Below, piece after piece: positions 6,420 to 62,500 of a stretch of 64,000 bases of DNA. Both the position numbers and the translations under genes were made by a program. The stretch's first letter is position 1. Each line of letters opens with the position of its first letter. The notes under the pieces are model-generated. The model saw only the letters and a list, made by a program, of their open reading frames with translations. It was not told the origin of the DNA and did not search any database. Origin of the DNA: Aquella oligotrophica (GTDB taxonomy: Bacteria; Pseudomonadota; Gammaproteobacteria; Burkholderiales; UBA11063); assembly GCF_002892535.1 (NCBI RefSeq), contig NZ_CP024847.1, forward strand, positions 1,178,001 through 1,242,000, in the 5' to 3' direction.

Positions 6420-6495
<76 letters not shown>

Positions 6496-6522: not shown

Positions 6523-6598
<76 letters not shown>

Positions 6599-6622
6599 TA
6601 AATTAGAGCCTATATATACTGT

Positions 6623-6696: not shown

Positions 6697-6717
6697 ATTC
6701 AGAATAATGGTGTTAAT

Positions 6718-6808
6718 GCCGCGGTGGCGAAACAGGTAGACGCAAGGGACTTAAAATCCCTCGGGATATACAACTCCCGTGCCGGTTCGATTCCGGCCCG
6801 CGGCACCA
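6718..6808 (+). tRNA. tRNA-Leu (anticodon TAA)
   Basis: A 91-base class II tRNA with a long variable arm, acceptor stem GCCGCGG/CCGCGGC, anticodon loop CTTAAAA (anticodon TAA) and an encoded CCA. The Gly-Cys-Leu order is a common proteobacterial tRNA cluster. Confidence 0.96.
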
Positions 6809-6909
6809 TTTCCAGTGATCAAAAATAAATCCAGTCAAGTATTTAATTTAAGTAGTCAATATTTTATAGAATCGTTTATAATTATTCTCTAATATTAGCA
6901 TGAAGATTT

Positions 6910-41699: not shown

Positions 41700-42065
41700 A
41701 TGGGAGCAATGACGATTATAGATATAGCAACCTCGTTCTCAACCGGGAAGTTTAATCTGACTTATGATTTTATTGCTCCAGAAGCAGAATGGGAGATAGT
41801 TGGAGAGTCTCTATTTTCAGGTAGGGAGCAAATTATTGCAAATTGTGAAAAAGTATGCTCCTATTTTAATACTGTGACGACTAATTTTAAAGTAGCTAAT
41901 ATACTGGTAGATGGTGATAAGGTTGTTATAAATGGAACCGCTGAGTTTTTTAAAAATGATCAGTTGATTTCATTTATTTCTGCCTGTGATTTTTATCAGT
42001 TTAGTGAGCAAAAGCAGCTAGTAAAAATAACTTCATATTGTATTACTAGAAACTATTTAGGTTGA
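41700..42065 (+). CDS. NTF2/SnoaL-like small protein
   Basis: This 121-residue protein (from the ATG at 41700, with GGAG nine bases upstream) has the SnoaL/NTF2-like pattern: FSTGKFNLTYDFIAPEAEWE, FSGREQIIANCEKVCSYF and a beta-rich end VINGTAEFFKND. Such folds act as isomerases, hydrolases or binding proteins. It converges with the PAS-LuxR gene, and their 3' ends overlap by nine bases. Confidence 0.65.
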   Translation: MGAMTIIDIATSFSTGKFNLTYDFIAPEAEWEIVGESLFSGREQIIANCEKVCSYFNTVTTNFKVANILVDGDKVVINGTAEFFKNDQLISFISACDFYQFSEQKQLVKITSYCITRNYLG

Positions 42066-42785
42066 ATGATCAAAGACCGTGTAATCAGTTATTTCAATAC
42101 AAAATCCGTCACGCAGAATATTATTTGGCACAAAACGATAGTAGCCTAAATCGATTAGTTTGTCGTAAAGTGCTTTCCGTCCAAAAACGGAGAATTTTGG
42201 AATTAATTGGGATTTGAATACTTGGTCAATTGCATTCTTGGATATTGTTTTTTCCTCAATTTTAGAGATTATTTCGGCGATCGTATTGCTATCTAGGTTC
42301 AATAGAAATAAAAATACTACCTGTTTTTCCCGGTTTGTTAATTTGATCTGATAGTCAAATTTATCAATTAATGCAATACCTTTGGTATAGTATTTAGATA
42401 GAATAAACCAGATATTAAGAGTGTCAACTAGTTTACTACTACTATATAAGGCAACAATGTTATCTGTTTTTGGATTGATAATCGGTGCATAAGTTATAGT
42501 TAAAAATCTTGATTGTCTATTTTGGGCGGTATCCATTAATAGATACTTTACCAAAGATTTTTTCTCAATGGCTTTATCTTGCAGTGTAACTACCTCAGGT
42601 TTATGAAGGTGCGCGACTACTTCATTATCACTAATACCAATGTGTTTTGCAAACTCGGATTTATACAGTATTTCCTTTTCAAGACTTAATATTCCACCTA
42701 AAAAATCCCCCGTGGATTCACTTATTAACTTGAAATAGCTAATATATTGGTTGAGAAATTCCTGGTCTGTTTGTTCTAGCATCAT
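42057..42785 (-). CDS. PAS-LuxR type transcriptional regulator
   Basis: This 242-residue regulator has an N-terminal PAS-like sensor (about 20-120, FLGGILSLEKEILYKSEFAK and FLTITYAPIINPKTDNIVAL) and a LuxR/GerE helix-turn-helix (about 150-215, KLTNREKQVVFLFLLNLDSN). It is transcribed away from an RND-free tripartite efflux operon that starts at 43018, so it probably controls that operon. A second regulator with the same layout is at 53717-54523. Confidence 0.7.
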   Translation of the reverse strand: MMLEQTDQEFLNQYISYFKLISESTGDFLGGILSLEKEILYKSEFAKHIGISDNEVVAHLHKPEVVTLQDKAIEKKSLVKYLLMDTAQNRQSRFLTITYAPIINPKTDNIVALYSSSKLVDTLNIWFILSKYYTKGIALIDKFDYQIKLTNREKQVVFLFLLNLDSNTIAEIISKIEEKTISKNAIDQVFKSQLIPKFSVFGRKALYDKLIDLGYYRFVPNNILRDGFCIEITDYTVFDHST

Positions 42786-42890: not shown

Positions 42891-42954
42891 CTAAGTAAAA
42901 ATGTAGTTGTTAAGAACCTTTTAGTTAACATAAAATCACGCTTCTATTTATCCG
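42891..42954 (+). repeat. Promoter-like repeat R1 upstream of the efflux operon
   Basis: CTAAGTAAAAATGTAGTTGTT is shared with R2 at 48465-48526, and the following 40 bases (AATC.CGCT..TAT core) are also similar. Each contains a TTGTT-16/17-ATA(A/G)AA promoter-like pair. It lies in the gap between the PAS-LuxR gene and the MFS gene. Confidence 0.6.
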
Positions 42955-43017: not shown

Positions 43018-44532
43018 ATGAAAAAATGGTTCTGGCTTGAGCCTAGGTCCATAGTTGCAATTGCAGTCTGTTTGCTGGCATTAGCAGAAATTGTTGATTT
43101 GACGATTGTGGCAGTTGCGATTCCTCACATTATGGGCGCATTGGGCTGTAATATTCAGGAAGTATCGCTGGTAACTACTAGTTATATTGTTGCTGCTGCC
43201 GTATTTATTATGACAACTGGATTTGTTAGTTCGAGATTGGGTAGCAAAAAAACAATTTTATTATCTACATTTGTCTTTGGATTATCTTCTATTCTTTGCG
43301 GATTTGCCAGTAGTCTTAATGAGATGGTTATTTTTAGGCTAATTCAAGGGATTGGCGGCGCATTTTTACCTTCAATGGCTCAGGGCTATATCGTTGGTAA
43401 CTTTGATGAAGAAGAGCAACCAAAGATGATGAGCATTATGACGTTGACTGTAGTTTTAGGACCAATAATAGGTCCGCTTGCTGGTGGTTATCTGGTAAAT
43501 GCTTATAGCTGGCGGTGTATCTTCTTTGTTAATGTACCAATTTGCTTGGTTGCCTTTCTAATCGTATTTTTCTGGATGAAAGAAACACTAACTGAAAAAG
43601 TCAGTTTTGATTCAATAAGTTTTGCATTTATGGCAATTGGCTTTGGCTCACTTGAGTACTTCATCGATGAAGGAAATAATCTTAACTGGTTCAATTCTCA
43701 TAAAATGGTAATCTGTTTATGTGTTGGACTGGTTTTTATAACTTTTTTCATCTGGCGTGGGGTATTGGGGCATTCTGTAGTCAGCTTCAAACTTTTTAAA
43801 AACTCTAATTTTGTAATATCTTGTGCAATTGTATTTTTATTTATGGTTGCGGTAACTACCGGAATGGCTTTTTATGCTACGTTTTTACAACAAGGTTATA
43901 GTTTTCCGGTTGATATAGCTGGGTACATAACTGCGCCACGTGGTGTATTTGCTGTTGTTGGTGGAGTTCTTGGCAGTATCTTATGTAATAAGTTTGATAA
44001 ACGATTAGTTCTTATTTGTGGTTTACTTCTATTTAGCTTGGGTTGCCATTTAGAAACTCGTTTTGGTACTAATTGGAGCTTACATACTCAGCTATTAACC
44101 TGTGCAATTATTGGTCTTAGTATGTCAATGACTTTTACTCCATTATTGCAGGTTGCATTTACTGGAGTAACTGAAGCATTAAGTAATGATGCTAGTGGGG
44201 TATTTAATTTTTTCAGAAATATTGGCAACTCGGTTGGAACTTCAATCGCTTCAACCCTTCTCAGTCGGAATGAGCAAACTTCATGGAATGATTTATCTAG
44301 TCATTTGAAACCTTTTAGTAATGCCGTACAGCAGTTACAAAATGGATTATTTCAGGGGATGTCAATTCAAAAACAGATTACTATTTTTTCTGGGCAAGTA
44401 CAAGCTCAGGCATTCCTGATCGCAAATATAAATCTTTTCTACCTTGGATGCATTATGGCATTGTCACTTTGTTTGCTACCAATGTTTTTAGCTAAGCCAC
44501 CCAAAGGAATTATTAAAGTTCATGCTCACTAA
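43018..44532 (+). CDS. MFS multidrug efflux pump, DHA2 (EmrB/QacA) family
   Basis: This 504-residue inner-membrane protein with 14 likely helices has DHA2 motifs: EIVDLTIVAVAIPHIMGALG near the N-terminus, GSKKTILLSTFVFGLSS, and the motif C region MTLTVVLGPIIGPLAGGYLV. It probably forms an EmrB-type drug:H+ antiporter with the HlyD-like adaptor (44592) and outer-membrane factor (45594) that follow. The PAS-LuxR gene diverges from it. Confidence 0.93.
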   Translation: MKKWFWLEPRSIVAIAVCLLALAEIVDLTIVAVAIPHIMGALGCNIQEVSLVTTSYIVAAAVFIMTTGFVSSRLGSKKTILLSTFVFGLSSILCGFASSLNEMVIFRLIQGIGGAFLPSMAQGYIVGNFDEEEQPKMMSIMTLTVVLGPIIGPLAGGYLVNAYSWRCIFFVNVPICLVAFLIVFFWMKETLTEKVSFDSISFAFMAIGFGSLEYFIDEGNNLNWFNSHKMVICLCVGLVFITFFIWRGVLGHSVVSFKLFKNSNFVISCAIVFLFMVAVTTGMAFYATFLQQGYSFPVDIAGYITAPRGVFAVVGGVLGSILCNKFDKRLVLICGLLLFSLGCHLETRFGTNWSLHTQLLTCAIIGLSMSMTFTPLLQVAFTGVTEALSNDASGVFNFFRNIGNSVGTSIASTLLSRNEQTSWNDLSSHLKPFSNAVQQLQNGLFQGMSIQKQITIFSGQVQAQAFLIANINLFYLGCIMALSLCLLPMFLAKPPKGIIKVHAH

Positions 44533-44591: not shown

Positions 44592-45572
44592 ATGGATAAG
44601 CAAAAAATTAGCATTATTATTCGTGGTTTATTACTAATTGCTGTAGTTAGTGGTGGGGTATATTGGTATTTTCAACACTCTGAAAAATATCCATCAACTG
44701 ATGATGGTTATGTGAATGCCAATTTGGTTAATGTAGCACCCAAGGTCAGCGGCTACGTTGAAGAAATTTTGGTTAAAAATAACCAGTTTGTTCATAAAGG
44801 TGATGTGTTATTTCGCATTGCGCCAACTGATTATAGTGTTCAATTAGATCAACAGCAGCAGGCGTTACAATATGCAGTTCAGCTGGCTAATAATGCCAAA
44901 GCCCAGATTAGTACTGCGGTAGCTAATGTGGCAAGTGCTAAAGTCAATTATGCCAATGCGGCAGAGCAGGTTAAACGTTATACCGAGATGAATCGGCAAA
45001 ACGCAGCTTCTACCCAGAATTTACAATCTTATCAAACCCAGTTTGCTCAAGCAAAAGCTCAGTTAATTCAGGCAGAAAATACGTTAGAACAATATAAGAT
45101 TCAAGTTGAAGCTGCTAATGCTCAAGTTGGTCAGGCTAAAGCCCAAGTTGCCAATGCCAGAAATAATGTTGGTTATACTGACGTAGTTTCTTCGGTTAAT
45201 GGCTTTGTTTCCAATATGTATTTAACCAAGGGGCAGTATGTTGCTGTTGGGCAGCAGGTTTTTGGGCTGGTTGATAATGATAGCTGGTGGATTGATGCTA
45301 ATTTTAAAGAAACCGATATTGAACGAGTAAAAGAAGGACAGCCAGTTGATGTTAATCTTGATTTATATAAACATGCACATTATAAAGGTGTTGTCCAAAG
45401 TATAAGCTATGCTAGTGGGACTACTTTTTCATTACTTCCGCCACAAAATGCGACAGGGAATTGGGTTAAGGTTACTCAGAGATTTACAATTCGGATTAAG
45501 GTAGAAAATAATCCTAAATTTCCGTTACGAGTCGGGGCTAGTGCCGATGTTCAAATTGATACAACCAAGTAA
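44592..45572 (+). CDS. HlyD/EmrA-type periplasmic adaptor
   Basis: This 326-residue membrane-fusion protein has an N-terminal anchor (SIIIRGLLLIAVVSGGVYWY), the biotinyl-lipoyl halves (KVSGYVEEILVKNNQFVHKG), a long coiled-coil hairpin rich in Ala/Gln/Asn (about 80-195), and the beta-barrel domain. The coiled coil should dock to the outer-membrane factor downstream. It is 60 bases after the MFS gene, with AGGATAA before its start. Confidence 0.93.
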   Translation: MDKQKISIIIRGLLLIAVVSGGVYWYFQHSEKYPSTDDGYVNANLVNVAPKVSGYVEEILVKNNQFVHKGDVLFRIAPTDYSVQLDQQQQALQYAVQLANNAKAQISTAVANVASAKVNYANAAEQVKRYTEMNRQNAASTQNLQSYQTQFAQAKAQLIQAENTLEQYKIQVEAANAQVGQAKAQVANARNNVGYTDVVSSVNGFVSNMYLTKGQYVAVGQQVFGLVDNDSWWIDANFKETDIERVKEGQPVDVNLDLYKHAHYKGVVQSISYASGTTFSLLPPQNATGNWVKVTQRFTIRIKVENNPKFPLRVGASADVQIDTTK

Positions 45573-45593: not shown

Positions 45594-47066
45594 ATGACAA
45601 AAATTTCAGTAATTAGCCTAACTACTCTGGCTATGGTACTTGGTGGTTGTGGCATATTTTCTCCAGAATATCATCAGCCTAAGATAGATACCCCGGTATC
45701 AACAAAAAATGGAACTATGATTGAATCAAGCAATATCGACTTTAGTCAATTGGAGTGGTGGAAAAAGCTAAATGATCCGGTTTTAAACCAATTAATTGTA
45801 TTGGCTTTTGCTAATAATGCACAAATTCAGGTAGCTCAGGGGAATATAATGAAAGCCGAGGCAAGCCTGAAGGCGGCACAATACGCATGGATTCCGACTC
45901 TAAGCGCTCTTGGTGGTGGGTTTGCTGGAAATACTTGGGCGAGCAGTTTAACTCCACAAGGTGCGCTGGCTGCTAGTCCGGCAGCTCAGTCCGGGAATAT
46001 AGCAAATATGAATTTTAGTGGACTTTATGGTGGCTTTGTCCCTTCTTATAGCTTTAATGTATTTGCCAATATCAATCAGGCTAAACTAGCCAAAGCTAGC
46101 CTAGACATGCAAAAAGCCTTATATAATGCAACTCGATTAACCATTATTGGTCAGGTAAGTGGTGGTTATTTTACCTTGCTGGCGCAGAAAAAACAGCTAG
46201 CTCTTCAGGAGCAAATGATTGCAGATCTAATGGAGTTACGCCGACTCGAAATGATTCAGGTAAATAATGGTGCGGCTGATTTGGGTAATATCACCAGTTA
46301 TGATCAAGAAATTAGCAGTAATCAGGCGAAATTGCCAAAAATTAAAAATTCGATTTCGCAAACTGAAAATGCGTTAAGGGTTTTAATTAATGAAAATCCA
46401 GGTATAATAGTTACGAATGGTTCAATTGATAAACTGGTAACTGATAATCTAATCCCAGCCAATATTCCTTCTTCGGTATTAAAAAATCGCCCAGATGTTA
46501 TTCAGGCGGAAGATAGCTTAAAAATGGCTAATGCAAATGTTGGATTGGCAAATTCTCAGTTTTTTCCAACCATTAGTCTAACCGGGTTTGCTGGTGGGGC
46601 ATCCGAGGCATTAAGTAATTTATTTAATCTTGGTACTGGTTTCTGGATGGGGAGTGCATTAGTTAGTATGCCAGTTATTAATGCCAGTACTTACGAGCGG
46701 GTAAATGTAGAAAAAGGTGGATATTATGCCGGGTATTATAGTTATATGCAAACTGTTAAATCGGCCTTTCAAAATGTTGATAATAGCCTAACTAATAAAG
46801 AAAATATGGATAAAATCTATGCTGAAACTCTTAAATCATATAAAGCAGCAAATGATAACTATAAAATAAACCAAATTCAGTTTAAGGCGGGTAATTCTGC
46901 GCTGAATAATGTTATTAAGTCAAAATTAAATCTGGATAATGCTAGTTTGGGGTTACTACAGGCAAAATCGCAGCAACTCGATGCTTTGGTACAGGTTTAT
47001 CAGGCATTGGCTGTCGGTTATGCTGCTGAGAGTGAATTAAGTAAACCGAAGGTATTAGCAGATTAA
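45594..47066 (+). CDS. Outer-membrane efflux lipoprotein (NodT/OprM family)
   Basis: This 490-residue TolC-like channel has a lipoprotein signal (LAMVLGGCGIF, Cys19) and the two-fold OEP repeats with helical stretches near 90-260 and 280-480. The NodT hallmarks ALRVLINENPG and LKNRPDVIQAEDSLKMANAN are present. With the two genes before it, this makes a complete tripartite efflux pump. Confidence 0.95.
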   Translation: MTKISVISLTTLAMVLGGCGIFSPEYHQPKIDTPVSTKNGTMIESSNIDFSQLEWWKKLNDPVLNQLIVLAFANNAQIQVAQGNIMKAEASLKAAQYAWIPTLSALGGGFAGNTWASSLTPQGALAASPAAQSGNIANMNFSGLYGGFVPSYSFNVFANINQAKLAKASLDMQKALYNATRLTIIGQVSGGYFTLLAQKKQLALQEQMIADLMELRRLEMIQVNNGAADLGNITSYDQEISSNQAKLPKIKNSISQTENALRVLINENPGIIVTNGSIDKLVTDNLIPANIPSSVLKNRPDVIQAEDSLKMANANVGLANSQFFPTISLTGFAGGASEALSNLFNLGTGFWMGSALVSMPVINASTYERVNVEKGGYYAGYYSYMQTVKSAFQNVDNSLTNKENMDKIYAETLKSYKAANDNYKINQIQFKAGNSALNNVIKSKLNLDNASLGLLQAKSQQLDALVQVYQALAVGYAAESELSKPKVLAD

Positions 47067-47257: not shown

Positions 47258-48379
47258 ATGAAAAAATTATTAACAGCAATATGTTTTACTAGTGCGATTT
47301 TTAATATGTCAGGCGCTAATGCATGTACAACTCTTATTATTAAAGACAATCAGGGTGGGGTGTATCAAGGAAGAACAATGGAATTTGGTGATGGACTACC
47401 ACAAATGTATTTGAATTATTATCCAGTAGGTAGTAAATTTGTAGCAAGTGCCCCAGCAGGTAAAAAACCATTAAGTTATACAGCTAAGTATGCGGTACTT
47501 GAAGCCGTTGCGCAAATAGATAAAACTAATCAAAAGACAGCAGTGGATGGAATTAACAGCCAAGGTTTAACCGTAACGGTAAATGCGTTTGGACTAAGTA
47601 AAGGAACTGATACTAAAAATACGTCAAATATTATTGATGCTGATAGTCTTGGGCAATGGATATTATCCCAATTCTCTTCAGTTGACGAAGTTAAATCTGC
47701 AATTGTTAAGCAATCAATTTGGTTTGAACCAACACTTCTAATGGGATTAAAATTTCCTCTCCATATAGCAGTATTTGATCGATCTGGAAAGGGAATTGTA
47801 ATTGAATTTATAAATGGCAAATTAGTGGTAAATGATAATCCGGTTGGTGTAATGACTAATGCCCCAGAATTTACTTGGCATTTAACTAACTTAAATAATT
47901 ATACTTCGTTAAGCAATGTTGGTAATGGAACTGCAAAATGGAATGGTGAGACTCTTCACCAATTTGATACCGGGGGTAATACCCTAGGTTTACCTGATGA
48001 TGACTCAAGTACTGGAAGATTTGTCAGAGCAGCATTTTACTCTAATTTTGCAACCAAGCCAGATCCAGCGAATGGAGTAGCAACCTTAGGTAAAATCATG
48101 AATAAATTTGATCGTATTAAAGGCGTAACTGAAACTAATACTGCAAGTACGGAAGCGTTAGCGAATCCAAGTAGTACTAAATCATACCCATCTGAGTGGA
48201 CGGTTTTTACTACATTACGTGATCTAAATAATACTACCTACTATATCCGAACTGAAAGTAGCTTAAATTATGCACAATTTAATTTAAATACTATTAAAAA
48301 TAATCCGAAGCCTTTCAGTCTTCCATTTAGTGATCTATATAAACCCGATGTAGTTAAACAAATCACGAGTAGCAATTGA
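47258..48379 (+). CDS. Linear amide C-N hydrolase, choloylglycine hydrolase / penicillin V acylase family
   Basis: This 373-residue Ntn-hydrolase has a signal peptide ending right before Cys23 (GANACTTLIIKD), which would become the N-terminal catalytic nucleophile after cleavage, as in the C59 family. The family regions QGRTMEFGDGLPQMYLNYYP and GINSQGLTVTVNAFG are present, with the later NxxR-like stretch RTESSLNYAQFNLN. Secreted members cleave bile-acid or N-acyl homoserine lactone amides; the substrate is unknown here. The 3' end of this gene is duplicated at 49325 onwards. Confidence 0.88.
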   Translation: MKKLLTAICFTSAIFNMSGANACTTLIIKDNQGGVYQGRTMEFGDGLPQMYLNYYPVGSKFVASAPAGKKPLSYTAKYAVLEAVAQIDKTNQKTAVDGINSQGLTVTVNAFGLSKGTDTKNTSNIIDADSLGQWILSQFSSVDEVKSAIVKQSIWFEPTLLMGLKFPLHIAVFDRSGKGIVIEFINGKLVVNDNPVGVMTNAPEFTWHLTNLNNYTSLSNVGNGTAKWNGETLHQFDTGGNTLGLPDDDSSTGRFVRAAFYSNFATKPDPANGVATLGKIMNKFDRIKGVTETNTASTEALANPSSTKSYPSEWTVFTTLRDLNNTTYYIRTESSLNYAQFNLNTIKNNPKPFSLPFSDLYKPDVVKQITSSN

Positions 48380-48466
48380 TTCTAAATCATAACTGAGAGT
48401 TTTACTACAAAGCTAGTTATCTGTAAATGAGGTGAAGTTAGGAAGCTATTGCGTGAAAAAATTACT
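48227..48466 (+). repeat. Left long direct repeat around marC (end of C59 gene plus spacer)
   Basis: The last 150 bases of the C59 gene and the following spacer, ending GTGAAAAAATTACT, are repeated at 49325-49523 with high identity in the first 115 bases (for example GTCTTCCATTTAGTGATCTA) and more divergence after. The second copy leads straight into the porin start codon, so the ancestral order was probably C59 gene - spacer - porin, and marC arrived between duplicated halves. Confidence 0.75.
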
Positions 48467-48526
48467 AAGTAAAAATGTAGTTGTTCAGATACCTCTAACT
48501 CATATAGAATCGTGCTCTTATCTATC
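48465..48526 (+). repeat. Promoter-like repeat R2 upstream of marC
   Basis: CTAAGTAAAAATGTAGTTGTT matches R1 (42891) base for base, then the similarity continues with changes. It includes a TTGTTC-16-TATAGA promoter-like pair. It sits between the left direct repeat and marC. Confidence 0.6.
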
Positions 48527-48661
48527 AGTAATTGACTAGTTGCCAAAAACATGATAAATAGGTATTATATGTTTAGATCAATAAAACATTTTATTTGTTT
48601 ATATGCTGGTTAGATTTACGGAGAATTAGTAGGGGTAAACTATATTCTGAAGGAAATATAA

Positions 48662-49303
48662 ATGTTTGAAAATTCATATCAACACTATTTACTGGGCTTA
48701 ATTGCAGTAGCAAATAATATTTCTGCATTAGCACCATTTATTGCATTAACTTCCGGGCTAGATAAAATAATTATCCGTCGCTTAGTCGTTGTAAGTAGCT
48801 TGAGTACGTTTATTATTATGATGGTTTCAATGTTTTGTGGTACTATGCTCTTGGAGTTTTTTGGAATATCAATTAGCGCATTCCAGATAGCTGGAGGTAT
48901 TCTTTTATGTGGTACTGGCACTAGTATGCTAAATGCAAAAAGCTCAAACGACGTTAGTGGCAAACAGATAATGCACTCTCAAATCGAATACTCCAAATAT
49001 GTGTCAGCAGCTATTGTGCCAATTGCTCTTCCATTAACTGCCGGTGCTGGAACTATTTCTACAATAACTTTATTTACTGAGATGGCAAAGAAAAGCCACA
49101 CCATGCCAGAATTATTTGTTGCCATTCTGAGTATTACAGTAGTTGTTTTTATCTGCTTTTATTTTGCAAATAATGTAGTCAAAATTCTTGGGGATATTGG
49201 GATGAGCGTATTAATTAAAGTAATGGGATTATTTACACTTGCTATAGGCGTTCAATTTATTATTACAGGTGTTTCTACTGTCTATAAAGGCTTAGTTACC
49301 TAA
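48662..49303 (+). CDS. MarC family membrane protein
   Basis: This 213-residue protein with six predicted helices matches MarC (UPF0056): GLIAVANNISALAPFIALTS and ISAFQIAGGILLCGTGTSML. AAGGAAATATA precedes the start. MarC proteins were once linked to multiple antibiotic resistance, but their function is not established. The gene lies between two long direct repeats, and a decayed inverted copy of it is at 52482-52680. Confidence 0.9.
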   Translation: MFENSYQHYLLGLIAVANNISALAPFIALTSGLDKIIIRRLVVVSSLSTFIIMMVSMFCGTMLLEFFGISISAFQIAGGILLCGTGTSMLNAKSSNDVSGKQIMHSQIEYSKYVSAAIVPIALPLTAGAGTISTITLFTEMAKKSHTMPELFVAILSITVVVFICFYFANNVVKILGDIGMSVLIKVMGLFTLAIGVQFIITGVSTVYKGLVT

Positions 49304-49324
49304 TAGTATTATTCATTTAAACAA

Positions 49325-49523
49325 AATAATACTACCTACTGTATCCAAACTGAAAGTAGTTTAAATTATGCACAATTTAATTTAAATACTCTAAAAAAAT
49401 AATCCGAAGCCTTTCAGTCTTCCATTTAGTGATCTATATAAATCAGAGCTGATAACTTTGCGATAGAGTCAGTTGTCTGTAGATGATGTAAAGAGAAGGA
49501 AGCTATTGAGTGAAAAAATTACT
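49325..49523 (+). repeat. Right long direct repeat around marC
   Basis: Begins AATAATACTACCTACT and repeats the end of the C59 gene, now non-coding, down to the porin start region GTGAAAAAATTACT. About 40 bases shorter than the left copy because of a deletion in the middle. Confidence 0.75.
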
Positions 49524-50928
49524 CTATCCGCTATTAGTTTGTACAAGTTTTTCAATATTTGCCGATGAAAATGAATCTGGAGTTGAAAATATAAATGCAA
49601 GTTATATTAGATCAGATAATTATATTCAAAACCCTTATCGTTCAATAGTTAGTGGTGGCGGAACTCGAAACCTAAATGAAAGTCAAATTCAAGAGCATAA
49701 TTTTGCAGAAAAATTGTTTTATGATGGGACATGGAACCTAGAGGCGGGGGCGTCGGCGCAATATACTGGTGTTGGTGCAGGCTACCCAAATTATGCATAT
49801 GGATTGAATCTCTTTGGGCAGACTGGTAGAGTTGGTGGATTTTCCGCTGGTGGTGTATTTACTGCGATGAATCCTTTTTTTGCTGCGCAGATGAATGGCT
49901 CGAATACTAATGCTGCGCCTTTTTTACCATCGAATGAGCAGGTTACTGTTTCGGAAGCTTATCTTGAATATCAGCATGGTAATGTCATTCAAGTCGATGC
50001 TGGTTATATCGGGATAAATAATAGTCCTTGGTTATCTGAGAATTATTATGCAAATGTAATGTCTCCTGGCACAACATATCAAGGGCTTTTAGTGAATATG
50101 TATCCAGGAGGTGGTTGGTTATTAACTGCACTAACTTTCAATGGTGCACAGATTGTCAGTGAAACCGGATTTACCCCATATACCTTTTATAATAAAGGAT
50201 ATGACTATTTAGGTGGTACTATTGTTAATAATAATCCTTCAGTGACTTCTTCTGGAACAGCTGCTTTGGGGGCAAACTATACTGGCTGGAATAATCAGTA
50301 TAATCTGCGTATCTGGGGATATCAATTTAATAACTATGGTACATTACTCTATGCTGATAACAGTATAAAATTTCAGCCAAGTAAAGCATTATCTTTTAGC
50401 CTTGCCGCACAGGCAGGAACAGATAATCAGCTGGCAAACGGAAGTAACGCCATGACTAATGATAGTTTGGGGCAGATTTCGAGTAATTTTGTTGGGTTAC
50501 AAGGCGGGGTTAACTATGATTGGTTTGGCTTCAGCATTGGATATAATAATGTTTGGGGACCAAACTCTGCTTATGGTAATGGAGCAATTGTTACCCCATA
50601 CACCTATGGCTTTGCTACCGATCCACTATATTCCACGCCCTATATGTCAGGATTGGCAGACTTGGGGACTGCTGGTTCGGCATATAAACTGAGTCCAAGT
50701 TTTACCTTTCTTAATGGTTGTCTTTCTTTTTCTACCGCCTATACGATATTTAATACTTCTATTGCCGAATGGAATGGAACTCAAGAGTACGATTTTACTG
50801 CAACATACAATATTCCAGAGATTAAAGGACTGACTTTATTTGGTGTTTATGCTTATCAGCAGGTGCCAGATATTAATACTAGTGGGAATAGCTATATAAC
50901 ACAGATATATGTTAGCTATTTATATTAA
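49510..50928 (+). CDS. Outer-membrane porin-like beta-barrel protein
   Basis: This 472-residue protein starts at a GTG with GAAGGAAG upstream. It has a signal peptide (about 1-18) and an aromatic-rich, Gly-rich barrel sequence with alternating strands (WNLEAGASAQYTGVGAGYPN, GGVNYDWFGFSIGYNNVW) and a C-terminal strand ending in Tyr (ITQIYVSYLY). This suits a large outer-membrane porin or an OprD/OmpL-like channel. Its substrate is not evident. The M20 hydrolase follows 53 bases later. Confidence 0.78.
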   Translation: MKKLLYPLLVCTSFSIFADENESGVENINASYIRSDNYIQNPYRSIVSGGGTRNLNESQIQEHNFAEKLFYDGTWNLEAGASAQYTGVGAGYPNYAYGLNLFGQTGRVGGFSAGGVFTAMNPFFAAQMNGSNTNAAPFLPSNEQVTVSEAYLEYQHGNVIQVDAGYIGINNSPWLSENYYANVMSPGTTYQGLLVNMYPGGGWLLTALTFNGAQIVSETGFTPYTFYNKGYDYLGGTIVNNNPSVTSSGTAALGANYTGWNNQYNLRIWGYQFNNYGTLLYADNSIKFQPSKALSFSLAAQAGTDNQLANGSNAMTNDSLGQISSNFVGLQGGVNYDWFGFSIGYNNVWGPNSAYGNGAIVTPYTYGFATDPLYSTPYMSGLADLGTAGSAYKLSPSFTFLNGCLSFSTAYTIFNTSIAEWNGTQEYDFTATYNIPEIKGLTLFGVYAYQQVPDINTSGNSYITQIYVSYLY

Positions 50929-50981
50929 TATTATACAAGATAATCAAAAATTAGTGTTTTTTATATAAAGGAGCTTATAAG

Positions 50982-52385
50982 ATGATTAATATGGATTTAT
51001 TAAATGAGGTTAACTCACTTGAAAATAAAGTATGGGACTTGGCATACAGAATGTGGGAATTAAGTGAATTAAGCTTGGAGGAAGAGCAAAGTTCTAAGCT
51101 TACTGCTAATTATCTGGCAGATAATGACTTTATTCTTAGCGATCATGGTATTGGTGGATTAGATTATGCGTGGGTTGCTACTTGGGGTAGTGGAAAGCCA
51201 GTACTCGGAATTACAGTTGAGTTTGATGCATTACCAGGGCTAGGTAATGAGATAATAACGAATAAGATGCCAAGAAAGGATGGAAATCCCAATGGACATG
51301 GTTGCGGACATAATTTAATTGGTGCTGGAGCAATATGTGCTGCAGTTGCGTTAAAAAGATATTTACAAAAAAATAATATTAATGCAACAATCAAGGTTTT
51401 TGGTTGCCCAGCTGAAGAGGTACTAACTGGTAAAAACTATATGGCGAGAGCTGGGGCTTTTGATACCCTTGATGCCTGCTTACATTGGCACCCACTAAAT
51501 AAAACCATGCCATTTAATATAAATACACCTGCACTGACTAACTTGAGAGTGGAATTTTTTGGTAAAACCAGCCACTCTGGTCTTGCACCATGGGATGGGC
51601 GTAGTGCTGCTCATGCGGCAGAAATATTTGTGCATGGCATAAATGCGATGCGCGAACACATTCTTCCCGAGTCTAGGGTTCAATACCTTATTGAGAAGTC
51701 CGGTGAAGCAGTAAATGTAGTTTCTGATTATGCAAGAATAAATGTTGGATATCGTGGACCAAATGCAAAGAATGTTTTGAAGTATATGGAGTGGATGAGA
51801 GATATTGCTAAGGGGGCTGCTCTCGCAACCCAAACTAAAGAGGCGTTTACTAATTTGGCTGGTGCTTATGATCTTTTACCAAATCAGGTCATGGCAGATC
51901 GGGTTATGCACTATTTAACTCAATTAGGTGCACCAGATTGGACCGAAGAAGAGCAGGCTTTTGCTAAGCAAATGCAAGAGTCGGAAGGTTATGAACAAGT
52001 TGGTTTATCAACCGAAATTGCTCCAGATCCCAAGGGTACTAATTTTGGTGGTGCAACCGATGTGGGGGATATCAGCTATATTACACCAACATCGGGTGTA
52101 GCAATTGCGTGTTGGCCAACTGGTTTTGCTCCACATACTTGGGCAGCTACAGCATGTAATGGTATGACTATTGGTCGCAAGGGTATGATGCGTGCAGCTC
52201 AGGTGCTGGCACTTACTGGGCTTGACCTTATTGCTGAAAGTGATTTCTTGACTGCTGCTAAAATGGAGTTTTTAGAGCGTACCAATGGTTGGAAATATCA
52301 ATCATTATGTCAATCGGACATTCCACCTTTAGCAGCTGAGCATTCGCATCATATCGATACACACGATGCAATTCATCATATGTAA
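50982..52385 (+). CDS. M20 family amidohydrolase, AbgB-like
   Basis: This 467-residue zinc metalloenzyme hydrolyses an N-acyl amino acid or aminobenzoyl-glutamate type amide. The metal-binding region includes LGITVEFDALPGLGNEI, GHGCGHNLIGAGA, CPAEEVLTGKNYMARAGAF and HWHPLNKTMP, and the C-terminal His in FAPHTWAATACNG. It shows AbgB-like length. AAAGGAG precedes the start. Cytoplasmic (no signal peptide), it may use products brought in by the porin next to it and made by the C59 hydrolase upstream; that link is inference. Confidence 0.88.
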   Translation: MINMDLLNEVNSLENKVWDLAYRMWELSELSLEEEQSSKLTANYLADNDFILSDHGIGGLDYAWVATWGSGKPVLGITVEFDALPGLGNEIITNKMPRKDGNPNGHGCGHNLIGAGAICAAVALKRYLQKNNINATIKVFGCPAEEVLTGKNYMARAGAFDTLDACLHWHPLNKTMPFNINTPALTNLRVEFFGKTSHSGLAPWDGRSAAHAAEIFVHGINAMREHILPESRVQYLIEKSGEAVNVVSDYARINVGYRGPNAKNVLKYMEWMRDIAKGAALATQTKEAFTNLAGAYDLLPNQVMADRVMHYLTQLGAPDWTEEEQAFAKQMQESEGYEQVGLSTEIAPDPKGTNFGGATDVGDISYITPTSGVAIACWPTGFAPHTWAATACNGMTIGRKGMMRAAQVLALTGLDLIAESDFLTAAKMEFLERTNGWKYQSLCQSDIPPLAAEHSHHIDTHDAIHHM

Positions 52386-52406
52386 AATTTTTAATTTATA
52401 TTAACA

Positions 52407-52450
52407 GATATAGCAACGCCAGTAATATTTATTTCTGGCGTTGCTATATC
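52407..52450 (+). terminator. Strong 16-base hairpin after the M20 gene
   Basis: A perfect 16-base stem GATATAGCAACGCCAG (52407-52422) and its complement (52435-52450) with a 12-base loop sits 22 bases past the M20 stop. There is no T-tract behind it, so it may be an RNA stability element or a rho-assisted terminator rather than a classic one. Confidence 0.6.
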
Positions 52451-52481
52451 AATCAAATTCTGTTTAAATAAATGATATTAT

Positions 52482-52680
52482 GAAGTAACTAAGCCTTTAT
52501 AGACAGTAGAAACATCTGAATAATAAGTTGAGCTCCTATGGCAAGCGGAAATAATCCCACTACTTTGCTGGCACATATTTGGAGTATTCGATTTTGGAAT
52601 GCATTATCAACTGTTTGCTACTAACCCCATTTAAGCTTTTTGCATTTAGTATGCTGGTGCTAATACCACATAAAAGAATA
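52482..52680 (-). pseudogene. Decayed inverted copy of marC
   Basis: On the minus strand the sequence reads like marC in pieces: ATTCTTTTATGTGGTA, CATACTAAATGCAAAAAGCT, ATCGAATACTCCAAATATGT and, at the end, TTTCTACTGTCTATAAAGGC. Compared with the intact gene (48662-49303) the first half and an internal part are missing and the reading frame is broken. Together with the hairpin and the terminator it fills the 414-base gap between the M20 gene and the OM barrel gene. Confidence 0.75.
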
Positions 52681-52719
52681 ATGTAACCTATATTCTAAGA
52701 GTGCTGCTAGCTTGGAATA

Positions 52720-52758
52720 GAAATAAAACAAGGCAGGTGAAGTTTTGGTCTGCCTTGT
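52720..52758 (-). terminator. Rho-independent terminator of the OM barrel gene
   Basis: Stem ACAAGGCAG/CTGCCTTGT (52728-52736 and 52750-52758) followed on the minus strand by TTTTATTTC. Confidence 0.75.
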
Positions 52759-52799
52759 TTACTTCTTGGTATGGATATTAATATTTTGCTATCGTATTA

Positions 52800-53390
52800 T
52801 TACATCCGTACTTCAAGACCAAGAGTAGTAATATTGGTATTACCAAAACCGCCGTTATTGCCGCCACCAACTACAATTACGCCAGAGTCTTCAATATAAA
52901 TTCCAAAACGTTTAGAGAGGTTAAATTGCATTCCGGCACCATAATAGGGACCAACATTAACCGGGGTAATCATGCTCATATTTTGCATATTCATTCCCAT
53001 CATCATTGAATTGCTCGTTGCTGTTCCTTGCCCAGCATTTACACCTAGACCTAACTTGCCATATAGATTGAATGCGTCTGCTAAAGGTAAAATTCCTTTG
53101 GCTGCCAAATGAAAGGTATTAATCATAGCTCCGTTATTTTGATAATTACCACTTGGTAACATATCCATTCCTAATTCTACGCCTAAGCCTGGCTTATAAT
53201 AAAATCCCATCGTCATGGCATTTAGTGCTAATGAACCAGTGCCCCAGTTACCAGCCGTGCCATAACCTAGCCCGAAATCCATATACATCATATTATCCAT
53301 GTTCATCATATCTGACATATAGGTACCATTATTATCCGCAAAGGTTGAGAATGAAGATAGTAACAATAAGCTCCCCAGCAATTTTTTCAT
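52800..53390 (-). CDS. Small outer-membrane beta-barrel protein, Met-rich
   Basis: This 196-residue protein has a signal peptide (about 1-18, MKKLLGSLLLLSSFSTFA), an OmpA/OmpX-like eight-strand pattern with alternating aromatic and Gly residues, and a C-terminal strand ending VRM. Two Met-rich stretches are unusual, SDMMNMDNMMYMDF and NSMMMGMNMQNMSMI, which could lie in loops; they might bind copper, but that is speculation. AAGGAATAAT precedes the start. Confidence 0.75.
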   Translation of the reverse strand: MKKLLGSLLLLSSFSTFADNNGTYMSDMMNMDNMMYMDFGLGYGTAGNWGTGSLALNAMTMGFYYKPGLGVELGMDMLPSGNYQNNGAMINTFHLAAKGILPLADAFNLYGKLGLGVNAGQGTATSNSMMMGMNMQNMSMITPVNVGPYYGAGMQFNLSKRFGIYIEDSGVIVVGGGNNGGFGNTNITTLGLEVRM

Positions 53391-53716
53391 ATTATTCCTT
53401 CTATATTATTAAATTTTAAACCCGTTAGGGTACTGGGATTTTACATTACAAATTTTACGACTAAAAGATAAATTTGAAGCTTGATGGCAAAAAATTATTA
53501 ATTTAAGTTATTTGCTAATATAGTTTTTTTGATGGGTGATGTCTTTTTATGGTTTTGTATTGATTGAAAATAATATGTATAATTACAGTTGGTTATGTAT
53601 TGTGGGTGGAGGTAAGTAAAAAGGATGAGATTAATCATTTTCTAGGCAAGAAATATTGTGCTGCAAAAAAGCAACATTTTTGAGGGCGTAGGTTTTTTTA
53701 GAATACTTATGTTTTT
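53391..53716. other. Intergenic region with an orphan promoter-like pair
   Basis: This 326-base gap between two minus-strand genes has no gene I can see. On the plus strand TTGTAT (53555-53560) and TATAAT (53578-53583) are 17 bases apart, followed by about 100 bases ending in a weak stem GCTGC/GCAAC and TTTTT near 53676-53682. A small RNA is possible but weakly supported. Confidence 0.25.
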
Positions 53717-54523
53717 TTAAGAAGTTTTTTGCAGCTTTTTATTAACTTCTTCATCAAGAATCAATACCAGAGGGCGTAATAAGCTTTTAGGTGGTGACTG
53801 AAAACAATTCATTTCCTGAATTTTCTCAATTACTTGACGAGTGCTTGATCCTATAATGCCAAGCTTTGGGCAGATTTGATCACTGATCACTTTTGCTATT
53901 GTTCCTCTGCCGATTTGTAAAATATCAGCAATTTGATATTGGGAGAACCCAATTGTCAGTAAATATGCAATTTCCAGCTCACGAGGTGCGAATATCTGTA
54001 AAACATCATTCATTTCTGCTTCAGTTAATTTAATCAATTTGTTATTATCATGTGTTTTAAATTGTTCAAAATAATCATTAATGCCAAAAAGTTTATGTGT
54101 TGAATAGTATATTTGGATAGCTATTACTTCTTCGTTTGGGTTAAATAGTGGAATTAGTGTACATAGATACGATTCATAAATACTTCTATAGGGGATCATT
54201 TCAACAAAGCTTACGACAACCTTTTCTTTTACTACCAATAATTCCAGCTTATACAGCAAATTAAAATAATCTTGAATTTGATCTATGATTTGTGAGTCTG
54301 TGATTCCCATTTTTGTGCGAATAATTTTGGTGTAGGTGCTGTTGTAACTCATACCTATTACATCTTCCCATTTATCAAAGCCTGCTGATTTTGCCAATGT
54401 ATTTGTTGAGCATAAAATGCAACCATTTATGTCTTTTATTGCTGAATAGATATTTTGATTAATAAGAGGGCGAAAATTATTTATTATCACATCATTTAAA
54501 TAGTTTTGCATATGCTTTTCCAC
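53717..54523 (-). CDS. PAS-LuxR type transcriptional regulator (second copy)
   Basis: This 268-residue regulator has a PAS-like N-terminal part (about 15-145, YSAIKDINGCILCSTNTLAK and FVEMIPYRSIYESYLCTLIP) and a LuxR HTH (about 175-240, FAPRELEIAYLLTIGFSQYQ followed by IADILQIGRGTIAKVI). It diverges from the giant lipoprotein gene at 54721, whose promoter region contains the shared element also found before the LPMO gene, so it is the best candidate regulator of that regulon. Confidence 0.72.
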   Translation of the reverse strand: MEKHMQNYLNDVIINNFRPLINQNIYSAIKDINGCILCSTNTLAKSAGFDKWEDVIGMSYNSTYTKIIRTKMGITDSQIIDQIQDYFNLLYKLELLVVKEKVVVSFVEMIPYRSIYESYLCTLIPLFNPNEEVIAIQIYYSTHKLFGINDYFEQFKTHDNNKLIKLTEAEMNDVLQIFAPRELEIAYLLTIGFSQYQIADILQIGRGTIAKVISDQICPKLGIIGSSTRQVIEKIQEMNCFQSPPKSLLRPLVLILDEEVNKKLQKTS

Positions 54524-54585
54524 TAATACACAGTAGTTATTATCAAATATGAGAAAGATTTTGTACGATCTTATATGCTACAAAA

Positions 54586-54647
54586 TTTGTTAGGCACTAT
54601 CCCCACCAAAATAGTTGGTTAAATAATAATTTGGTAACAATTATACT
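54586..54647 (+). promoter_or_regulatory. Conserved promoter element A upstream of the giant lipoprotein
   Basis: TTTGTTAGGCACTAT is followed by CCCCACCAAAATAGTTGGTT (54601-54620) and, 21 bases later, TATACT (54642-54647). A near-identical element with the same 21-base spacing to its TATAAT is at 60610-60673. The inner palindrome ACCAA-AATAG-TTGGT is a likely operator. A second -10-like TATAAT is present at 54684-54689, so the start site is uncertain. Confidence 0.65.
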
Positions 54648-54720
54648 ACAGGCTGCAAAAATAAGAAATAGAAGTTGTTTTTGTATAATGTTTAAATTAT
54701 TTAACCACAAGGAGAAGGTT

Positions 54721-57534
54721 GTGAAAATATCAAACCGTATTAATAAGCTGTATGGTGTACTTATTGCATCAGGTAGCTTATCATTAGTTGCGTGTAATAG
54801 TGGTACAACAGGTACTAGCCAAGGTACAAATGCAGCTTCAAATGAAGTTGTACATGCTAAAGCGTCAAAAGCAATTATTGCCGCGAATAACTGTTTAATT
54901 CCTACCGTGTCAGGTAGTGGGCAGGTTAATGGTTCAGGAACTGTTGTAGTTGAAGTAACTAATAAGTGTAGCCAAAATCAGACCGTTGATGGGCATACTA
55001 TCCAGTTTGCAACGCAGGATGTTAAAGGTAATTATGCTGAGATTAATGACTGGACATCAACTAGTAACAGTAATTTATTCCCAATTAGCTTGAACCAGCA
55101 AAATATTCTTGAAAACTATATTAGTACTAGTAAAGTATTAAAACCAAATGAAAGTATCAAGTTTAGTAGTACACGTATTTATACTACCAATAATAATAAA
55201 TTTGACATCGCGAAAGCTCAGGCAACTGCTGCCATTGATGGTGTAATCCCATCGAAAGAACCAGAAACTGCTGCAATGACAGTTAAGGTTGATACTGCAG
55301 GGGCTGAGTGTACTAAGGCAACTAAAAATAAACCATCTAGCTGTGATGGGATTAATGTGGATGTTGCTGATGCGACTGGTAATGTTGTGGCAACATTTGC
55401 AATGCCAGTTGAAGGTGGTGAAAAGGTTGTGGATGGGCTTAATGTTGATCAGAAATATAGCGTAAGTGCAACTCCACTAGCTTCAGAAAGTATCAGCTAT
55501 GCACCAACTTCAGATGTTACTATTGCTAAAAATAAGAAAAATGAAGTGGGTGTAAAATATACTAAAGTTGCTGCGGTTACTACTGGTAGTCTAGTGATTA
55601 ATGTTCCTCAAGTACTAGAAACATATACTGGCGTGATTGATGTTTTGGTTGTCAAAAATGGTGCTGACGTTGTAGCTCAATATCACTTGAAGCAGGGCAC
55701 TCTTTCGCCTAAACTTGATTTGCCAGTTAGTGATGAAAATAATACTTATGAAGTGAAACTTGCTCGTGGTATTGCTGACCCAGTTAATGGTAAATATTTC
55801 AATCAAGCACCAAATAATATAAAAGCTGTAGCGATCAAAAAAGGAAAAGAAACTACCTTTAACCTTGCTTTTAAAGCTGTTGCTAATAAAGATCTGAAAA
55901 AAGTTACCCTAGATGTTAAAGGTTTAACTTCAGGTCAAACTGCCAAAATTTCTTTTGATGATGCAGCTCACTCATATAATTATTCAGGTGACAGTGTGTT
56001 ATCAAACGGTCAGAAACAGTATATGGCTGAAAGTGGTCTAGTTTTTGCTATCGGTGGTGTTAGTGATACTGCGGTAGTGAATTATGGTCCAGTAGTAATT
56101 GATAAAGCAGTAAAAGCTACTCTTGATTTTGGTAAGGTTGAGCCACAGCCAAATCCTGAGCCTACACCTGAGCCAGTACCGGGTAAACCAGGTGAATATT
56201 CATGGAGTTTGTTCCTTAAAGGTCCACAACTTCTAGATAAAGATGGATCATATCCTTATTTACCATGGGAAGAAATTCGTGCCGCTGATGGACCTAACGA
56301 TTTTTATGGTATGAGTGTATCTTCAGATGGCAAGCTTGCAGCATTAGCTATGGCAGATAACACAATTAAGGTTTATGATATGGAAACCCAAACTGTTAAA
56401 TATGACCTTGGTATGCCTAAATTCAAGCTTTATGATAATGTTGATATGCTAAATGGTAGTATATCAGTTAAATGGAATGGTACGAATAAACCACAGGTAG
56501 TTTACTTTTCGCGTTCTGGTGGAGTAGCTTACTTTGATGGAAGTAAATGGAGCATTCTTTCTGATATTGCTGAATACGATGCTATAGATTACTTTGGTGA
56601 TTCAGTAAAAGAAACTCTTGGGCAGTGGAAAAATGGTGGATTTAATGGATTTGAAGTTGACTGGTCTGGTGCAACTCCAAGAATCGCAATTGCCATCGAA
56701 GAGTTTGATACTGTAAAACCACGTAGTCAGAAATTTGGTTCTCTTTATGTCTATGAAAATGGTAAATGGAAACAAGTCGTAAAAACTACCGCTGATGTCC
56801 AACTGCTTAGTCTTGCTCCGGCTAGTAATGGTTTAAAAGCTCTATATGACGTTAATGAAACCCAAACCCTAGGGCATCCGGTTTATTATTATAATAATGG
56901 CAATGTTAAGAAAATTGCATCTTCGTGGTCTACTGCATATGGTCAGGGTGGTCGTACTGTTGATACTGATTGGAGTCAGGGTGATCCACGTATCATTTAT
57001 CAGGATGAAAATACTGTTAAATTACTAAATACCAAGAATAATAGCAGTAAAGTACTATATCAGTTCCAGCATGATTTTGAACTTAAGGGACCTTTATCTG
57101 TAAGTCATATTAATAGTCAGTGGAATGCCAATGATGCCAAAATAAAAACAGTTTTTGCTATGCAAAATGGTGCAGTTGAATACTATGGCGATGGCAAATT
57201 AACCGAGTTATCTGCTCCGATAAGAGGGTGGGATTTTGGTTCAACAATAAGTGGTGATTTGGCTGTCAGCTGGAATTCTGGGACTACTTTCCCTGAAGTA
57301 TTTGTCGGCAAAGGTGGTAACTTCTATGGTGATGTGAAGCTTATGGCAAATAATGGTGGTAGCACTATGTCAGCGGTTACTATTAACTATAACTCTAAAA
57401 AATATACAGCCATTGGCTATAATAAAGTGATTTGGAATAGCAATGGTACTGCGGGTAAAATTGTTGCTCAGATCTCAACTGGTGTTGTAAATGGTCATGC
57501 ACAGTACCCATTTGTGGTTGGTACTGCCAAATAA
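54721..57534 (+). CDS. Giant secreted lipoprotein, paralogue A, with C-terminal propeller-like domain
   Basis: This 937-residue lipoprotein starts at GTG 54721, six bases after AAGGAGAAGG; an in-frame upstream start at 54631 is less likely. The signal ends SLSLVACNSG. An N-terminal domain with CLIPTVSGSGQ and TNKCSQNQTVDGHTI is followed by Ig-like beta domains and a linker EPQPNPEPTPEPVPGKPGEY (about 510). The C-terminal part (about 520-937) has repeats with the WS(G/Q)xxPR motif (EVDWSGATPRIAIAIE, DTDWSQGDPRIIYQDE), likely a beta-propeller. It is closely related to the next lipoprotein. It may bind or process extracellular polysaccharide together with the LPMO; no catalytic motif was recognised. 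Confidence 0.8.
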   Translation: MKISNRINKLYGVLIASGSLSLVACNSGTTGTSQGTNAASNEVVHAKASKAIIAANNCLIPTVSGSGQVNGSGTVVVEVTNKCSQNQTVDGHTIQFATQDVKGNYAEINDWTSTSNSNLFPISLNQQNILENYISTSKVLKPNESIKFSSTRIYTTNNNKFDIAKAQATAAIDGVIPSKEPETAAMTVKVDTAGAECTKATKNKPSSCDGINVDVADATGNVVATFAMPVEGGEKVVDGLNVDQKYSVSATPLASESISYAPTSDVTIAKNKKNEVGVKYTKVAAVTTGSLVINVPQVLETYTGVIDVLVVKNGADVVAQYHLKQGTLSPKLDLPVSDENNTYEVKLARGIADPVNGKYFNQAPNNIKAVAIKKGKETTFNLAFKAVANKDLKKVTLDVKGLTSGQTAKISFDDAAHSYNYSGDSVLSNGQKQYMAESGLVFAIGGVSDTAVVNYGPVVIDKAVKATLDFGKVEPQPNPEPTPEPVPGKPGEYSWSLFLKGPQLLDKDGSYPYLPWEEIRAADGPNDFYGMSVSSDGKLAALAMADNTIKVYDMETQTVKYDLGMPKFKLYDNVDMLNGSISVKWNGTNKPQVVYFSRSGGVAYFDGSKWSILSDIAEYDAIDYFGDSVKETLGQWKNGGFNGFEVDWSGATPRIAIAIEEFDTVKPRSQKFGSLYVYENGKWKQVVKTTADVQLLSLAPASNGLKALYDVNETQTLGHPVYYYNNGNVKKIASSWSTAYGQGGRTVDTDWSQGDPRIIYQDENTVKLLNTKNNSSKVLYQFQHDFELKGPLSVSHINSQWNANDAKIKTVFAMQNGAVEYYGDGKLTELSAPIRGWDFGSTISGDLAVSWNSGTTFPEVFVGKGGNFYGDVKLMANNGGSTMSAVTINYNSKKYTAIGYNKVIWNSNGTAGKIVAQISTGVVNGHAQYPFVVGTAK

Positions 57535-57604
57535 TTTCTAATCATGCATTGCTACCTTAATGTGGCTTTGCATAATTCATTTTTTTCTTAGGTTTCTGCC
57601 TCTT

Positions 57605-57636
57605 GGCCACTGCTTATTCGGTGGCCTCTTTTTTTA
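57605..57636 (+). terminator. Rho-independent terminator after lipoprotein A
   Basis: Stem GGCCACTG/CGGTGGCC (57605-57612, 57619-57626) with a 6-base loop and TCTTTTTTTATT. It closes lipoprotein A, so lipoprotein B has its own promoter. Confidence 0.85.
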
Positions 57637-57795
57637 TTCTTTTTCATCACAAATATCAAATCAGCTAATGCTCTTCATTCCGTCAAAACTGTATAGGTAG
57701 ATTGCCGATATGGCTATATCGGTGGATTATCAATGGTTGTTATTATAACGTTATGGAAGATTTTAATTAGTAACTAATCATCAAGGAGATATTTT

Positions 57796-60501: not shown

Positions 60502-60609
60502 GTAAGAGTGGTTCTTAGTGAGGCAGTATTCGATATGAGTGCTGTCTTGCACATGTTTTTAGTTTTATATGTTTTAAGTTACGATATTATTGATTAGTTA
60601 TCATATCTA

Positions 60610-60673
60610 TTTGGTTAGGTGTGATTCCCCACCAAAATGGTTGGTTAAAATAAATCAATAATATGGTTATAAT
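60610..60673 (+). promoter_or_regulatory. Conserved promoter element B upstream of the LPMO gene
   Basis: TTTGGTTAGGTGTGATT leads into CCCCACCAAAATGGTTGGTT (60627-60646), 19 of 20 bases identical to element A, and 21 bases later TATAAT (60668-60673). The matching architecture strongly suggests a common transcription factor. Confidence 0.68.
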
Positions 60674-60708
60674 TTGTTCTCAATTTTGAAATTTAGGAAG
60701 GTATTTAT

Positions 60709-62409: not shown

Positions 62410-62421
62410 TACGTATTATCT

Positions 62422-62452
62422 TAATAAAGGGTGGTAGTTGTTATCGCCCTTT
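62422..62452 (+). terminator. Weak terminator-like hairpin after the LPMO gene
   Basis: AAAGGGTG and CGCCCTTT can pair around a 12-base loop; the T-tract is poor, so the hairpin may only slow transcription. Confidence 0.35.
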
Positions 62453-62470
62453 ATGTAAAGAATAATAGTT

Positions 62471-62500
62471 TTGACAAACTGTTTCAATCTGATTTATACT
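62471..62500 (+). promoter_or_regulatory. Near-consensus promoter of the Cys-rich peptide
   Basis: A perfect TTGACA (62471-62476) and TATACT (62495-62500) with 18 bases between, 54 bases ahead of the ATG. This is one of the strongest promoters in the window. Confidence 0.85.

Follow-up and report, generated by a model that had tools for sequence, protein, structure and literature searches.

An apparent insertion of marC between two copies of a hydrolase-porin junction in Aquella oligotrophica, behind a promoter segment like that of the neighbouring efflux operon

In Aquella oligotrophica P08T, an ancestral pair consisting of a C59-type hydrolase gene and a porin gene appears to have been split by an 857-nt unit made up of a promoter segment and marC, and the 241-nt junction of the pair appears to have been duplicated in the process. 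A double template switch during replication may have placed the promoter-marC unit between the two genes, and marC may thereby share a regulon with the efflux operon upstream; this combined reading is held with moderate confidence, and we infer the direction of the event, its mechanism and the regulation from comparison of sequences. The window, that is, the whole stretch of DNA analysed (64,000 nucleotides), covers positions 1178001-1242000 of a single-contig genome of 2,820,660 bases. P08T is described as a betaproteobacterium from tap water (PMC6612550), and the words efflux, marC, porin, duplication and transposase do not occur in the main text of that description. The genes that surround the site are the following.

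43018-44532, plus strand: EmrB/DHA2-type MFS efflux pump (TIGR00711, E=3e-99, above cut-off)
44592-45572, plus strand: EmrA-type periplasmic adaptor (TIGR00998, E=9.6e-75, under the curated cut-off; HlyD Pfam domains)
45594-47066, plus strand: NodT/TolC-type outer-membrane efflux channel (TIGR01845 above cut-off; PF02321)
47258-48379, plus strand: C59-type (choloylglycine hydrolase family) hydrolase gene, intact (PF02275, E=9.4e-51)
49510-50928, plus strand: porin gene, OprD/Occ-like predicted fold, intact (AlphaFold2 and Foldseek)

By their profile matches, the genes upstream of the C59 gene are an EmrAB-TolC-type set. The C59 protein carries the CBAH domain (PF02275, 173.7 bits against a cut-off of 20.4) and stays under the NCBIfam equivalog cut-offs for bile salt hydrolase and penicillin V amidase, which makes this a family-level assignment. 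The porin has no Pfam match, and six members of its family searched at E values up to 1 gave one stray hit only; a profile of six porins against PDB sequences likewise found no convincing match, the best (E=0.018) being an acyl-ACP synthetase. An earlier structural model of the porin was set aside (pLDDT 42.7). An AlphaFold2 model built from 19 sequences (mean pLDDT 71.9) has as its best PDB match OccK1/OpdK (3sys; Foldseek E=1.6e-19, TMt 0.76, 15% identity), a predicted outer-membrane beta-barrel of the Occ fold. Since the predicted model matches OprD/Occ porins in the PDB, the name porin given in the initial annotation of the sequence is borne out.

The duplicated junction and its single-copy counterpart

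The stretch that leads from the C59 gene into the porin gene is present twice in P08T, as copies referred to here as R1 and R2.

48226-48466 (241 nt), plus strand: R1, comprising C59 gene sequence (last 154 nt), the spacer and porin ORF sequence (first 14 nt)
49324-49523 (200 nt), plus strand: R2, comprising a C59 remnant with a 43-nt deletion, a diverged spacer and the porin start
48453-48539, plus strand: orphan 28-codon ORF in which the porin start is fused to insert sequence

The two copies lie 857 nt apart, with marC (48662-49303) within the gap, and R2 is placed after marC and continues straight into the porin gene. The initial annotation had claimed that the C59 end and the spacer recur beyond marC and that the second copy runs into the porin start. 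Both claims are confirmed: the best local alignment of R1 with the 2.5 kb downstream of it (48467-51000) scores 218, whereas 200 dinucleotide-preserving shuffles gave a maximum of 30. The C59-derived part of the repeat is 95% identical over 119 columns and the remainder 78% over 85 columns; relative to R1, R2 has the 43-nt deletion over the C59 stop and two 1-nt insertions. An assembly artefact in P08T was rejected because R1 and R2 differ by 5-22%, and the same range fits the earlier view that the event is not very recent.

The initial annotation omitted that R1 too holds the porin ORF's first 14 nt (GTG at 48453), and the repeat therefore covers the whole ancestral intergenic region together with the edges of both genes. 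Since the insertion would have duplicated this junction, the 3' end of the C59 gene is kept in R1 and the leader and start of the porin gene in R2. Both neighbours are whole in sequence, the C59 stop lying in R1 and the porin leader and start in R2, and the survival of the event may reflect that both stayed intact. A scan of the whole window for repeats of at least 45 nt (seed 14) found three other sets of direct repeats: a tandem array at about 29.1-30.4 kb, two identical tRNA-Gly genes and a pair of promoter segments described below; the inverted pairs were pieces of marC only. The array, at 29134-30423, is built of tandem units of about 150 nt together with two tandem 267-nt units (90% identical), and the tRNA-Gly(gcc) genes stand in tandem at 6419-6696 and are followed by tRNA-Cys.

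The C59 protein was searched in 41 genomes (P08T, 22 of the same genus and 18 of the order), and matches at E<=0.001 were present in 10 of them, P08T counted. A close C59 gene occurs outside P08T only in the sister genome G019, at 97% identity over its full length, and the next best match is at 38%. The junction could thus be examined in one of the 22 same-genus relatives, G019, a metagenome-assembled genome (MAG) that is 81% complete and holds the locus on contig C21 (24,652 nt). There the C59 gene (12190-13311) is followed directly by the porin ORF, whose start is listed at 13364, or lies at 13382 by comparison with the window, and whose end is at 14803, with one copy of the junction between them. 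Homology between the window and this contig covers 42066-48461 and picks up again at 49324. On either side of the P08T insert there is thus a copy of a sequence that the one empty-site genome has once, and as the C59 and porin genes stand side by side in G019, the marC arrangement looks like an ordinary gene insertion. This supports the reading in the initial annotation of a duplication-associated insertion of marC into a C59-porin pair. The annotation had proposed to look for a relative with the C59 gene adjoining the porin gene, and one such genome is now at hand; the case that it named as contrary, a relative in which marC is in place and the second repeat is missing, did not come up in the one genome examinable at the site.

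No close marC was found in the G019 MAG, 81% complete, where the sole MarC-family match is 30% identical and lies on another contig; a collapse of the repeats in that assembly is unlikely, given that a separate close marC is absent from it. Upstream of the junction, P08T and G019 are collinear except for an insertion of about 2.5 kb at positions 4518-6981 of the G019 contig. Downstream of the porin gene, from 50935 to about 62.5 kb, only two short DNA matches to G019 (<100 nt, 76%) were obtained. The block of about 11 kb at 50935-62500 encodes an M20 amidohydrolase, an OmpA-like protein, a regulator and two long proteins that by eye appear related.

The inserted unit, its promoter segment and the divergent regulator

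The inserted unit and the elements with which it was compared are as follows.

48467-49323 (857 nt), plus strand: inserted segment X, comprising a promoter segment, marC and 20 nt of marC 3' flank; absent from the G019 junction
48662-49303, plus strand: marC, MarC/NAAT family integral membrane protein (PF01914, TIGR00427)
48465-48526, plus strand: promoter-like segment, by homology, with which the insert opens; box at 48465-48485 (its first two bases in R1)
42891-42952, plus strand: efflux-operon promoter segment, homologous to the opening stretch of the insert; 21-nt box at 42891-42911
42057-42785, minus strand: divergent regulator gene beside the efflux operon, LuxR-like by eye; unmatched in Pfam and NCBIfam

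marC is the only ORF of at least 100 aa in X. Its product is, by profile, a member of the MarC/NAAT family: PF01914 (E=2.6e-40) spans residues 5-207 of 213 and profile positions 3-202 of 203, a domain of whole length, and TIGR00427 scores 120.4 bits against a cut-off of 99.2, while the protein falls under the equivalog cut-offs of YchE, MarC and YhgN. The marC genes of two relatives, G006 and G017, sit elsewhere than at a C59-porin junction, the latter near other genes. In G006 (contig C5, 6544-8610), marC is 79% identical in protein; it faces a porin-like gene of this porin family (48%) in convergent orientation and, as judged by eye, has a set of efflux genes nearby.

The promoter region of the efflux operon lies 5.6 kb upstream of the start of the marC insert. 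Aligned without gaps, 48465-48526 and 42891-42952 are identical at 47 of 62 positions, and at 26 of 41 outside the box. The same segment of the insert matches the promoter regions of the pump genes in G019 and G022 at 46/62 and 38/62 positions, respectively, and that of an HD-domain gene in G019 at 43/62. All five ungapped rows agree in 32 of 62 columns, and 13 of these are among the 41 columns that lie beyond the 21-nt box; five unrelated sequences should agree in about 0.3 columns there, although the three pump promoters among the rows are orthologous and hence non-independent. At up to 3 mismatches, the box CTAAGTAAAAATGTAGTTGTT has two sites in the P08T genome (control hits 0). In 23 genus genomes it has 14 matches in 9 genomes at that threshold, against 11 for the reversed-pattern control; five matches have 0-1 mismatch (two in P08T, two in G019 and one in G022), and the nine with 3 mismatches are meaningless as a class because the reversed control gave 11. 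Weaker variants of the dyad occur near the next-best homologues of the regulator, with 3 mismatches in G011 and 4 in G014, and at up to 5 mismatches the box is absent from the homologue loci of G002 and G003, the G002 contig starting too near the regulator for coverage. A sigma-70 scan gave 6 promoter-like sites where shuffled sequences gave a mean of 7.8, and it is not used as evidence of a promoter.

The closest relatives of the divergent regulator are found in G019 (83%) and G022 (75%), followed by one at 42%, and the set of genomes in which the box precedes the pump gene coincides with the set that has a close copy of the regulator: P08T, G019 and G022. Searched at E<=0.001, the regulator has 37 matches in the P08T genome, itself counted, an expanded regulator family of LuxR-like appearance by eye. 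Putatively, the box is bound by the divergent regulator. The marC unit has a promoter segment of the efflux-operon type, so that shared control is probable, and marC is probably co-controlled with the efflux operon by that regulator.

The G019 insertion at 4518-6981 consists of a glyoxalase-family gene, with an 82% match elsewhere in P08T, and the HD-domain gene, beside the same regulator. The HD-domain gene has an exact promoter box upstream and no match among those listed for P08T, which is without the block at this site. It is a rather doubtful proposition, worth stating all the same, that box-bearing genes were added independently beside one regulator in the two sister lineages, marC in P08T and the HD-domain gene in G019. 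If that were true, small promoter-gene units would accrete round a local regulator, at least once with duplications that spare the neighbours, and no mobile element would be needed for an efflux regulon to expand.

Origin of the insertion

A candidate for the source of the inserted marC lies about 3.1 kb downstream in the window, and one part of R2 has an unusual divergence.

52457-52680, minus strand: decayed inverted copy of marC with an internal deletion and a 3' flank common to the inserted marC (85-86% in two pieces)
49441-49523, plus strand: patch over the porin leader and start, strongly diverged relative to R1 and G019

In a piecewise alignment, the remnant and the inserted marC are identical at 164 of 183 coding sites (90%), and at the same 183 sites the inserted marC is 76% identical to the marC of G006 and 73% to that of G017. 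The 3' flank of marC is common to insert and remnant up to the R2 joint, within 4 nt. The remnant, whose surroundings are also missing from G019, is without the 5' part of marC and an internal stretch, and can be regarded as a candidate local template for the insert; its 5' part being lost, the comparison with the insert covers the remaining coding sequence and the 3' flank, and copying from remnant to insert is the presumed direction.

Under template switching, the likeliest route, a replication fork copying the C59 gene, the spacer and the porin start would have changed templates on reaching the porin start and taken up marC, possibly from the now decayed inverted copy, before going back upstream inside the C59 gene, where it would have recopied the junction. 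Two template switches would be expected to produce the order R1-X-R2, with X inverted relative to the local copy. The left and right joints may each have 2-4 nt of microhomology, which is weak in AT-rich DNA. In E. coli, template switching has been described to insert nearby sequence at junctions of a few matching base pairs (PMC3161906). Against template switching, the empty site rests on one MAG, G019, 81% complete. In addition, about a quarter of the sites in the R2 spacer depart from R1 and G019 while the adjoining C59 remnant differs little, an unevenness for which one simple event does not account.

The three sequences were compared at positions ungapped in R1, R2 and G019. Six sites group R1 and R2 against G019 (two in the C59 part and four in the porin start), two group R2 and G019 against R1, and 21 group R1 and G019 against R2 (four in the C59 part and 17 in the spacer). 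The six shared variants are compatible with a duplication in the P08T lineage after its split from G019; they fall short of proof because no outgroup with the locus was found. The 17 changes peculiar to R2 among the 70 ungapped spacer sites lie mostly in the porin leader, and 49424-49523 matches G019 at 76 of 100 positions, the other 100-nt bins of 49324-50923 giving 91-100. The patch is off a simple clock; it may have been recombined, have changed quickly once the insertion was in place, or indicate an older event. A gene-conversion origin of the R2 leader, with another porin gene as donor, was rejected within the window and the compared loci: blastn of the R2 spacer there gave convincing matches to R1 and G019 only, and the remaining matches were of 14-35 nt, the best (E=0.002) being to the porin starts of G002 and G011.

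The main rival to template switching is recombination of the transformation type, which we regard as possible but somewhat improbable. An incoming fragment with marC and C59-porin sequence would have been joined through homology on one side and by illegitimate recombination on the opposite side, or a circle would have entered by a single crossover, and R1 and R2 would be the recipient and donor versions. Such an origin explains the uneven divergence of R2 better than template switching does, as a donor-derived patch at 49441-49523, and homology-facilitated illegitimate recombination is on record for three species with natural competence (PMC3240628). The C59 part of R2, however, is nearly as near to G019 as that of R1 (108/114 and 111/114 ungapped sites identical, respectively), and the C59 end and marC occur together only in P08T (DNA search with 48100-49700 in 23 genus genomes, 15 candidates scored in each); the local marC remnant, moreover, makes an outside donor unnecessary. 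The divergence of the spacer, far greater between R1 and R2 (18/70 ungapped sites) than between R1 and G019 (1/70), speaks for an arrangement that predates the split of P08T and G019, with later loss of marC from G019 by homologous deletion between the repeats. This is unlikely, as the crossover must then fall at the extreme 3' end of the repeat, because G019 sides with R1 against R2 through 48452 and then continues with the porin. All six variants shared by R1 and R2 would also have to be changes in G019, and divergence in the C59 part is similar in the two comparisons (5/114 for R1-R2 and 3/114 for R1-G019).

Two flanking copies with sharp ends, and the different box-bearing gene with an HD domain beside the same regulator in G019, might suggest a mobile cassette or transposon that carried marC and left the repeats as an unusually long target-site duplication. 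Such a cassette is very improbable. No inverted repeats of at least 20 nt bounding X were found by program, and none were evident by eye in the printed ends; X holds marC only, and no transposase or integrase was noticed by eye among ORFs of at least 110 aa between 34 kb and the window end. To our knowledge, a duplication of 200-241 nt fits no transposon family. Small tandem duplications are common, and a junction duplicated in tandem could have received the promoter-marC unit in a later step exactly between the copies. That sequence of events is hardly credible, as the insertion must strike the joint of the duplication exactly, and a direct joint between two repeat copies is not seen in G019, the one relative with the locus.

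Relation to known systems

The marC insertion of P08T can be regarded as an ordinary, known kind of event with an unusually complete record, to which the present analysis contributes an empty site for comparison, a candidate template and a promoter segment in common with the efflux operon. It provides a before-and-after pair for the gain of a gene with no mobile element in sight: empty site, insert, duplication and decaying candidate template. The promoter segment suggests how marC joined the efflux regulon, and it links a MarC-family protein to an EmrAB-TolC-type system through a promoter sequence that can be tested. Homology-facilitated illegitimate recombination can leave a duplicated stretch. 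As in the cases described for that process, DNA would have been inserted using homology at one end; unlike them, no donor is identified for the P08T insert and a local marC copy is present (PMC3240628). The inserted gene is like the MarC/YchE (NAAT, 2.A.95) proteins in belonging to the family by Pfam and NCBIfam, and whereas E. coli MarC is described near marRAB, marC of P08T stands behind a promoter segment that an EmrAB-TolC-type operon also has (PMC12003319). The arrangement resembles the template-switch (MMBIR) rearrangements described in E. coli in its local duplication, nearby insert, inverted switches and few-base junction matches (PMC3161906). Those events, however, involve kilobases and were selected in the laboratory, whereas here a 241-nt duplication and an 857-nt insert emerge from a comparison of two genomes.
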